Positions 34,134 through 47,852 of a stretch of DNA of 47,852 nt are shown here, piece by piece. The position numbers and the translations under genes were made by a program. Under the pieces are notes generated by a model. It had not been told where the DNA came from. It did no database searches and saw only the letters and a list, made by a program, of their open reading frames with translations. Position 1 is the stretch's first letter; each line of letters starts with the position of its first letter. Source of the DNA: Sporolactobacillus laevolacticus DSM 442 (GTDB lineage Bacteria > Bacillota > Bacilli > Bacillales > Sporolactobacillaceae); contig NZ_AWTC01000001.1 of assembly GCF_000497245.1 (NCBI RefSeq), positions 7,825 through 55,676 on the forward strand, in the 5' to 3' direction.

Positions 34134-34254
34134 AGCACCTGTCTAATTAAATTGTGAAAGATGTTCCAAGAACGCCTGAAGGAACTCGGACTTATTAAAT
34201 TTTCATTTCATTATCAAAATAATATAGAGCAAGAAATCATTCTGTGATAATATA

Positions 34255-34340
34255 CCTATCGAGGCAAATTTTACGAAAGTATTAGACGCAAAGCCACGGG
34301 CCTAAAGCATTATTCATGTCATGGCAGCCGGGTTGCCAGG
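34255..34340 (+). ncRNA. Cyclic di-GMP-I (GEMM) riboswitch aptamer
   Basis: The sequence matches the GEMM-I consensus: GAGGCAAA (34261-34268), a GAAA tetraloop closed by TAC/GTA (34273-34282), GACGCAAAGCCACGGG (34285-34300), CCTAAAG (34301-34307) and ATGGCAGCCGGGTTGCC (34321-34337). Equivalents of the ligand-contacting bases of the Vibrio Vc2 aptamer are kept: G at 34264, A at 34291, C at 34336, consistent with c-di-GMP rather than cGAMP (which needs A at the first position). It precedes a CheY-like gene by about 65 bases. Confidence 0.93.
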
Positions 34341-46801: not shown

Positions 46802-47401
46802 TCACTGCCGGTCCGCACGAATAAAATAACCGCTTTTATACCACTCGAGAGGCTCAAGGTAGACGTTCCATCCTCTCTTTCGGTATTCTTCAACAATCTG
46901 TTCCGGAGTGAGTTGGTTTTTCATTCTCTCATTTTGACTGATGAACCAGCCCATTTGTCGAATGCCTGAAGTCACTAGATTGGTTACATCGTCAAAGTAT
47001 CGATCTGTATCCTCAATAAACATAAAAACATCACGACTGACTAAAAAATCCAGAGTCTGTTCAGCAAACACCTTGCTTAATTGAGCAATATCAGAATGAA
47101 GAAACTGAAACTTGCTAAGAACTGTCATATCCGTCAACTGGTCATTACACGCTTCGTCCTGATCAAGTCCATAGATGACCTTAATACGTTTATTGTCCAT
47201 CAAGTACCTACTCAGGAATCCCCCTCCGCATCCCAAGTCAAGTATTGTACCTGAGAGATCATTGAAATAGCTATGAATTCGATGATTGTAATAATAAGCA
47301 GCAGCTTTCTGGTCGACAACATTCTCTGTGCCGCATCTTGGGCATCTAATCTTCAAAGTGAAAGATGTCTCATTCCAAGGATGATGCTCCTTCTGCAACA
47401 C
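46802..47401 (-). CDS. Zinc-ribbon SAM methyltransferase, N-terminus possibly frameshifted
   Basis: A methyltransferase domain (ILDLGCGGGFLSRYL, motif I) follows a zinc-ribbon-like half (IRCPRCGTENVV). The annotated start (TTG 47401) is suspect: the same frame reads LCSKCGYACSVL just upstream (the other Cys pair), yet contains no ATG or supported start. A different frame from ATG 47505 reads MKKFKPDWSGDPLFLG. A one- or two-base indel near 47445 would join them into a full N-terminus. Substrate unknown; a Zn-ribbon partner suggests RNA or protein methylation, which I cannot test. Confidence 0.75.
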   Translation of the reverse strand: MLQKEHHPWNETSFTLKIRCPRCGTENVVDQKAAAYYYNHRIHSYFNDLSGTILDLGCGGGFLSRYLMDNKRIKVIYGLDQDEACNDQLTDMTVLSKFQFLHSDIAQLSKVFAEQTLDFLVSRDVFMFIEDTDRYFDDVTNLVTSGIRQMGWFISQNERMKNQLTPEQIVEEYRKRGWNVYLEPLEWYKSGYFIRADRQ

Positions 47402-47584: not shown

Positions 47585-47852
47585 TAAGAGTCTGTTCGAA
47601 AAGGAGGACAAAAAGGACCAAGAAGGTCAAGGAAACGCAGTTTCGAGCACCGGAGCGTGCTTCTACAGGATGTAGTGACTTCAACGTTACGTACAGGACG
47701 TACGCGTTCTTAGTTGAAGTTCCACTATTATGAAAACGTGAGGAGCGAAGAAGCAAGTTGACACAGAGAACTTCCGCAGGATGCGGTGACTTCTGCGTTA
47801 TGCACAGGACGTGCATGTAATTAGCAGAAGATCCTTCTTACCCTTTCCCGGA
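47585..47852 (+). repeat. Structured hairpin-array repeat, possible CsrA-binding RNA, runs off the window
   Basis: A GC-richer, non-coding 268-base element made of consecutive hairpins. H1 GACC-AAGAA-GGTC (47616-47628); H2 GAAAC-GCA-GTTTC (47632-47644); H3 AGCAC-CGGAGC-GTGCT (47646-47661); H4 CTACA-GGA-TGTAG (47663-47675); H5 ACTTCAAC/GTTGAAGT (47678-47685, 47713-47720) containing CGTAC-AGGAC-GTACG; H6 CCGCA-GGA-TGCGG (47774-47786); H7 CTTCTGC/GCAGAAG (47790-47796, 47824-47830) containing TGCAC-AGGAC-GTGCA. H4-H5 and H6-H7 are two tandem copies. The stems differ by compensatory changes, so structure rather than protein is selected. Alternative: a dispersed Bacillales intergenic repeat of unknown role. 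Confidence 0.6.

Follow-up and report, generated by a model that had tools for sequence, protein, structure and literature searches.

The hairpin array at the end of the window (the whole stretch of 47,852 nucleotides analysed here, from Sporolactobacillus laevolacticus DSM 442) is a composite element, a MITE in which Bacillaceae-1 modules are nested. A sequence-only reading of the same DNA had taken the array for a candidate CsrB-like decoy RNA or CsrA-binding repeat. The CsrB-like gene was not borne out: dozens of copies are present, in both orientations and with no preferred direction relative to genes. We consider it probable that we are dealing with a composite mobile repeat, made up of a MITE carrier and inner modules, and not with a CsrB-like gene.

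The four motifs lie where they had been read, with CAGGATG or CAGGACG at 47666-47672, 47694-47700, 47777-47783 and 47805-47811. As a 7-mer, CAGGAYG shows no enrichment across the window (12 occurrences vs. 7.26 expected, a count reached by 11 of 100 shuffles), and the four loops belong to two direct copies of a 64-base unit spaced 111 bases apart. Both units match the Rfam family RF01690 (Bacillaceae-1), for which the gathering score is 35 bits, and the matches are on the minus strand; CAGGAYG is thus the complement of the Bacillaceae-1 RUCCU loops, the consensus loops CGUCCUG and CAUCCUG being the complements of CAGGACG and CAGGATG, respectively. No Csr/Rsm family was found by Rfam scans in the window at gathering scores or in the fetched locus around the element (L001) at E values up to 5. 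Each motif had been placed at the tip of a stem, which held for three of the four in minimum-energy RNA folds of the plus strand: both motifs of 47766-47846 were at tips (z −2.35), and in 47655-47735 the second motif alone was at a tip (z −0.94), the first failing to cap a stem. Elsewhere in the window, a c-di-GMP-I riboswitch aptamer was observed at 34253-34340 on the plus strand (72.6 bits).

As had been noted, the element runs past the end of the window, the last base of which directly precedes an N in the contig (C1:55677). The 83 bases 3' of this N in L001 are an exact repeat of the 83 bases 5' of it. Among the fetched loci of this genome, four of the five distinct one-N joins showed exact overlaps of 62-87 bases, in each case at these repeats (L001 1769, L004 1500, L035 1473 and L047 981); the overlap joins are likely scaffolding artefacts that imitate tandem modules. 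Consequently, the apparent third module of the window element, which follows the N in L001, is probably a scaffolding artefact. At its far end the element carries CTTTTCGAACACCCTC, and TATAA flanks it on both sides. The copy sits between divergent genes, of which the left one (46802-47401) is methyltransferase-like, and a 79-aa ORF that crosses the element was taken as spurious. The features are listed in Table 1.

Table 1. Anatomy of the MITE copy that ends the window; positions are those of the window unless assigned to L001.
Feature	Position	Strand	Remarks
Left target-site duplication, TATAA	47583-47587	.	Partner TATAA outside the window, at L001 1869-1873
Left terminal inverted repeat of the MITE, GAGTCTGTTCGAAAAGG	47588-47604	+	Partner CTTTTCGAACACCCTC at L001 1853-1868
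MITE copy, loaded at sites 2 and 3 with one Bacillaceae-1 module each and empty at site 1	47588-47852	+	Cut by the window end at the N
MITE site 1, empty (GACC-AAGAA-GGTC)	47616-47628	+	From copy comparison; loaded elsewhere, in opposite orientation
Bacillaceae-1 module, site 2	47662-47729	-	64.8 bits; CAGGATG and CAGGACG on the plus strand
MITE middle segment, sites 2 to 3	47730-47771	+	From copy comparison
Bacillaceae-1 module, site 3	47773-47840	-	65.9 bits
Start of the MITE tail	47841-47852	+	Remainder after the N (L001)

In the genome (3.59 Mb in 32 contigs), 76 DNA pieces matched the 268-base stretch, and there were at least 74 RF01690 matches, at least 69 of them over the cut-off with artefact duplicates included. 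Dozens of genome-wide copies is a number that the sequence-only reading had itself set against its proposal. Copy numbers per genome are lower bounds for both Bacillaceae-1 and the MITE, in this genome as in the family and class scans, the class scan having scored up to 12 candidates per genome. The carrier is approximately 155 bases long when bare, with inverted ends (GAGNNTGTTCGAAAAGG) and a 5-bp target duplication. In the window copy the terminal inverted repeats are GAGTCTGTTCGAAAAGG and CTTTTCGAACACCCTC. Exact 5-bp target duplications were found in 46 of 103 elements, compared to a mean of 4.4 and a maximum of 11 in 300 shuffles; the 103 were all elements with both ends in the loci collected, and the duplication length and offsets used were those that scored best when a range was scanned.

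Sorted by eye, 47 copies from this genome comprised 18 bare, 25 loaded and 4 decayed elements. Automatic sorting gave partly different numbers, and the 47 are a part of the genome's set, with additional bare copies listed elsewhere in it. All seven combinations of loaded sites were seen: sites 1, 2 and 3 together in nine copies, 2 and 3 in six, 1 and 2 in three, 1 alone in three, 3 alone in two, and 1 and 3 or 2 alone in one copy each. Orientation is constant per site within Sporolactobacillus; site 1 modules are reversed and of two types, which differ in their left junctions. Carrier bases were replaced rather than cleanly split at sites 2 and 3. One bare MITE folded as RNA into a long hairpin with site 2 at its tip (z −3.3; z −1.5 as DNA). 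By crude ORF calls, 27 of the 47 copies have tandem neighbours, 9 have convergent and 9 divergent ones, and 2 are at an edge; the tandem copies are split between 15 along the gene direction and 12 opposed to it. Two copies lie inside a called ORF and the others between ORFs.

The motif and its carrier were followed into relatives. RF01690 matches occurred in 21 of 26 family genomes, with 0 to at least 124 matches per genome, and in 82 of 398 class genomes, 80 of these over the cut-off. MITE matches, some of them short, were found in 18 of the 26 family genomes, and the pattern of the MITE head was found in 51 stretches of named genomes, the hosts being Priestia abyssalis, Bacillus sp. FJAT-14578, Sporolactobacillus species, Oceanobacillus polygoni and Gracilibacillus lacisalsi. 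In Priestia and FJAT-14578 the MITE is 144 bases long when bare vs. mostly 203 bases when loaded, a difference of one 59-base module at site 3, and the orientation of this module is the reverse of that at site 3 in Sporolactobacillus. In the cleaner copies the module is bounded by GACGCNG and AAATTC, and no duplication is evident; others show a changed left flank, and extra inserts occur in some. Five loci of P. abyssalis and FJAT-14578 (L181, L189, L190, L201 and L203) showed, by eye, a non-Bacillaceae-1 insert of ~61 bases in the MITE after GAGCA.

The same module was found in repeats other than this MITE. The flanks of 171 modules, clustered with blastn (E 1e-4), formed 10 multi-copy groups and 13 singletons. 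The groups were the MITE (106 modules, 20 genomes), carrier a (14 modules, 5 genomes), carrier b (11 modules, 4 genomes), carrier c (10 modules, 5 genomes), carrier d (4 modules, 2 genomes), a tRNA spacer (4 modules, 3 genomes), 5S (3 modules, 3 genomes) and three pairs from one genome apiece. Five dispersed-repeat groups therefore held 145 of the 171 modules and the tRNA and 5S groups 7, in a sample weighted towards our own genome and drawn with a loop filter that missed NTCGT modules beside 16S. Carriers a-d, from other Bacilli, were not joined by flank similarity in this clustering. Bare copies were seen for carriers a, b and c, and none was found for carrier d among the copies searched. 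The module of carrier b has opposite orientations in two genomes (G006 vs. G275), in both lying between GCCCGA and AACAATC, and in carrier a some carrier bases are replaced at the module, so that the insertion is not clean. These orientation claims rest on copies compared side by side; the counts of opposite-orientation pairs from flank clustering may be inflated for the MITE, the arms of which are partly inverted repeats. Pieces of carrier c were also observed to recur every 123-124 bases, resembling a tandem array (G221:C32:3787-4474 and G257:C2:59134-59903).

Modules also adjoin mature rRNAs and tRNAs, as seen in a scan of 12 chosen loci. The match in L122 stops at the first base of 16S and has its UCCU strand in the sense direction; the one in L121, from the same genus, is reversed and shares 5 bases with the start of 16S. 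Matches end immediately 5' of 5S in L135, L132 and L228 and lie between tRNAs in L286 and L132.

Bacillaceae-1 modules are 59-68 bases long and consist of two hairpins with conserved UCCU/AGGA loops. Among the loci collected, a loop-neutral finder recovered 175 modules from 50 genomes (42 modules from our own), with a total of 350 loops. Loop conservation, on which the sequence-only reading depended, held in part: the AGGA core was kept in 301 loops (NTCCT, or AGGAN on the other strand), while 31 were NTCGT (ACGAN) and 18 were other sequences. The AGGAN loops have a free fifth base and are closed by C-G. The stems covaried in an alignment of 48 modules, each from a different genome and chosen beforehand for paired stems and loop type: 167 cells were double-changed, compared to 21-33 when the pairing was slid, and a one-sided change was seen in just 4 of 623. 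Stem pairing of this kind, with few wobbles, can arise through selection on an RNA, through DNA hairpins, or through template-switch correction of palindromes.

Given these positions, we favour the reading that the Bacillaceae-1 module is itself a mobile cassette. The outer unit would be a non-autonomous MITE, presumably moved in trans by a DDE-type transposase; we know of no transposase with ends matching those of the MITE. As the bare and loaded copies suggest, the modules would have entered the carrier either way round, mostly at loops or junctions and with no evident target duplication, and would afterwards have been copied along with it. The same module occurs in several further repeats and in spacers next to rRNA and tRNA genes, and it may have moved into those places too. 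The conserved loops would be what the module's mobiliser recognises, rather than parts of a strand-specific RNA sponge. In its widest form, the proposal is that Bacillaceae-1 across Bacilli is a mobile hairpin cassette and not a small RNA gene: a parasite of other repeats that would insert into the loops of several different MITE-like ones and next to mature rRNA and tRNA ends, either way round and leaving no target duplication, served by a putative mobiliser that reads the UCCU/AGGA loops. We offer this wide form tentatively, as a possibility we would hold at rather less than even. Some of the pattern might have come from carrier copies recombining with one another, and the replaced carrier bases at sites 2 and 3 and in carrier a, together with the single orientation per site within Sporolactobacillus, count against a moving module. 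A host function would also predict the loop conservation (301 of 350), the covarying stems and the weak lean towards the AGGA strand described below. A link of the inner module to IS200/IS605 (Y1_Tnp) was considered and is unsupported: 4 of 14 module-rich genomes lack Y1_Tnp, and a finder requiring NTCCT-type loops detected no module in 30 fetched Y1 loci, which leaves the inner module without a known mobiliser.

In the CsrA reading, transcripts of the plus strand with paired AGGA loops 28 bases apart would titrate CsrA in the manner of CsrB or RsmZ, the repeat acting as a CsrA sponge or CsrA-binding repeat. We judge this unlikely and a weaker reading than the mobile cassette. What stands of the original CsrA interpretation is the resemblance of the loops to CsrA sites on the plus strand and the co-occurrence of csrA; the CsrB-like gene and the novelty do not. 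The form of the AGGAN loops suits a sponge, and the window element has four GGA hairpin loops on its plus strand. On that strand, however, the site 1 modules and Priestia site 3 have UCCU instead, so that site 1 modules place complementary UCCU loops on the same strand as the AGGA loops; the 31 ACGAN and 18 other loops, and the varying orientation in carriers, relative to genes and beside 16S, also argue against a sponge. Mismatches on the UCCU strand lean towards the AGGA strand, with A.C over G.T by 56 to 29 in the 171 modules, which had been picked by NTCCT-type loops with a finder blind to NTCGT loops; collapsed by genome, the numbers were 35 to 23 (p 0.15), and genome by genome 13 vs. 5 with 3 ties, a lean too weak to assign a strand. 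Promoter-like sites did not exceed chance (2 vs. 1.8 expected), and terminator-like sites numbered 2 vs. 0.5 expected, one of them being a module hairpin.

The distribution of csrA bears on the sponge from both sides. Both genes that had been proposed for checking, csrA and fliW, are present in the genome, so the absence of csrA, which would have told against CsrA binding, does not apply; csrA (79 aa) adjoins fliW, and flgL- and flgK-like ORFs, named by eye, are close by. A bare MITE copy (C19:18189-18344) was observed approximately 1 kb from fliW-csrA (L384, G000:C19:15500-23500). In the class, csrA was found in 79 of 82 motif-bearing vs. 154 of 316 motif-free genomes (Fisher p 1e-17, lineage not corrected for), which favours a link as far as counts go, and lineage could explain it. 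Against this, every one of the 26 family genomes has csrA, the 5 that lack the motif among them, and families f19 and f31 have many csrA-bearing genomes and none among the motif-bearing ones. The three motif-bearing genomes with no csrA match were G107 (95% complete), G292 (1 match) and G221, the last with at least 7 matches and 100% completeness. The CsrA proposal itself has a precedent in a paper by Gardner and Eldai (PMC4333381). There, the reverse complement of Bacillaceae-1 is proposed to bind CsrA and the discoverers of the motif are described as unsure of its strand, so the claim that such an element would be new does not stand. A review passage describes FliW as an antagonist of CsrA in Bacillus subtilis (PMC7652899).

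A structured RNA for processing or spacing of rRNA and tRNA operons, copied secondarily to other places, would account for the modules that abut mature 16S, 5S and tRNAs. We consider it improbable, given the reverse orientations beside 16S in one genus (L122 vs. L121), the preponderance of dispersed-repeat groups over tRNA and 5S groups in the flank clusters, and the location of our own copies between ORFs, with two inside a called ORF. Equally improbable is a single vertically inherited composite element with later losses, in which the MITE alone ever moved: the single orientation per site in Sporolactobacillus and the likeness of modules at a given site agree with it, but site 3 is loaded oppositely in two lineages, the modules of site 1 are of two types that differ in their left junctions, and the module is present in other carriers.

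Both strands of Bacillaceae-1 are reportedly expressed in B. subtilis, the reverse complement lying upstream of 16S. A table in Weinberg 2010 lists Bacillaceae-1 as certainly RNA and probably not cis-regulatory (PMC2864571), and the BSGatlas gives eight copies in B. subtilis (PMC8208703). The window modules share with this listed RNA motif the two hairpins, the RUCCU loops and scores well over the gathering score; they differ from it in lying inside a MITE, where an element can hold as many as three of them, and in both orientations. With CsrB, CsrC and RsmZ the repeat has in common AGGAN hairpin loops on one strand, whereas it occurs in dozens of copies with no fixed strand, no dedicated gene seen and no family match. 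MITEs such as Bcr1 of Bacillus cereus, named as a MITE in PMC3733652, are likewise short and non-coding with inverted ends and target duplications; compared by description, the present element differs in having internal hairpin modules common to other repeats. REPs (GTAG/CGTC) and IS200/IS605-derived repeats resemble the modules as short hairpins in high copy, and CGTC-REPs likewise have no known transposase (PMC3733652). Unlike these repeats, the modules have two hairpins with conserved loops and no linked Y1 transposase. Literature searches on Bacillaceae-1, MITEs and nesting returned no account of this MITE or of Bacillaceae-1 nested in MITEs, and it appears that the motif has not been described before as nested in several different repeats.

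In a palindromic repeat, an RNA role is not proved by covariation and loop conservation alone. Should the inner module be capable of moving on its own, it would count as a short mobile element for which no enzyme is known. An Rfam 'sRNA' of unexplained function, for which a CsrA hypothesis has been published, thereby gains an anatomy, that of a module nested in mobile repeats.
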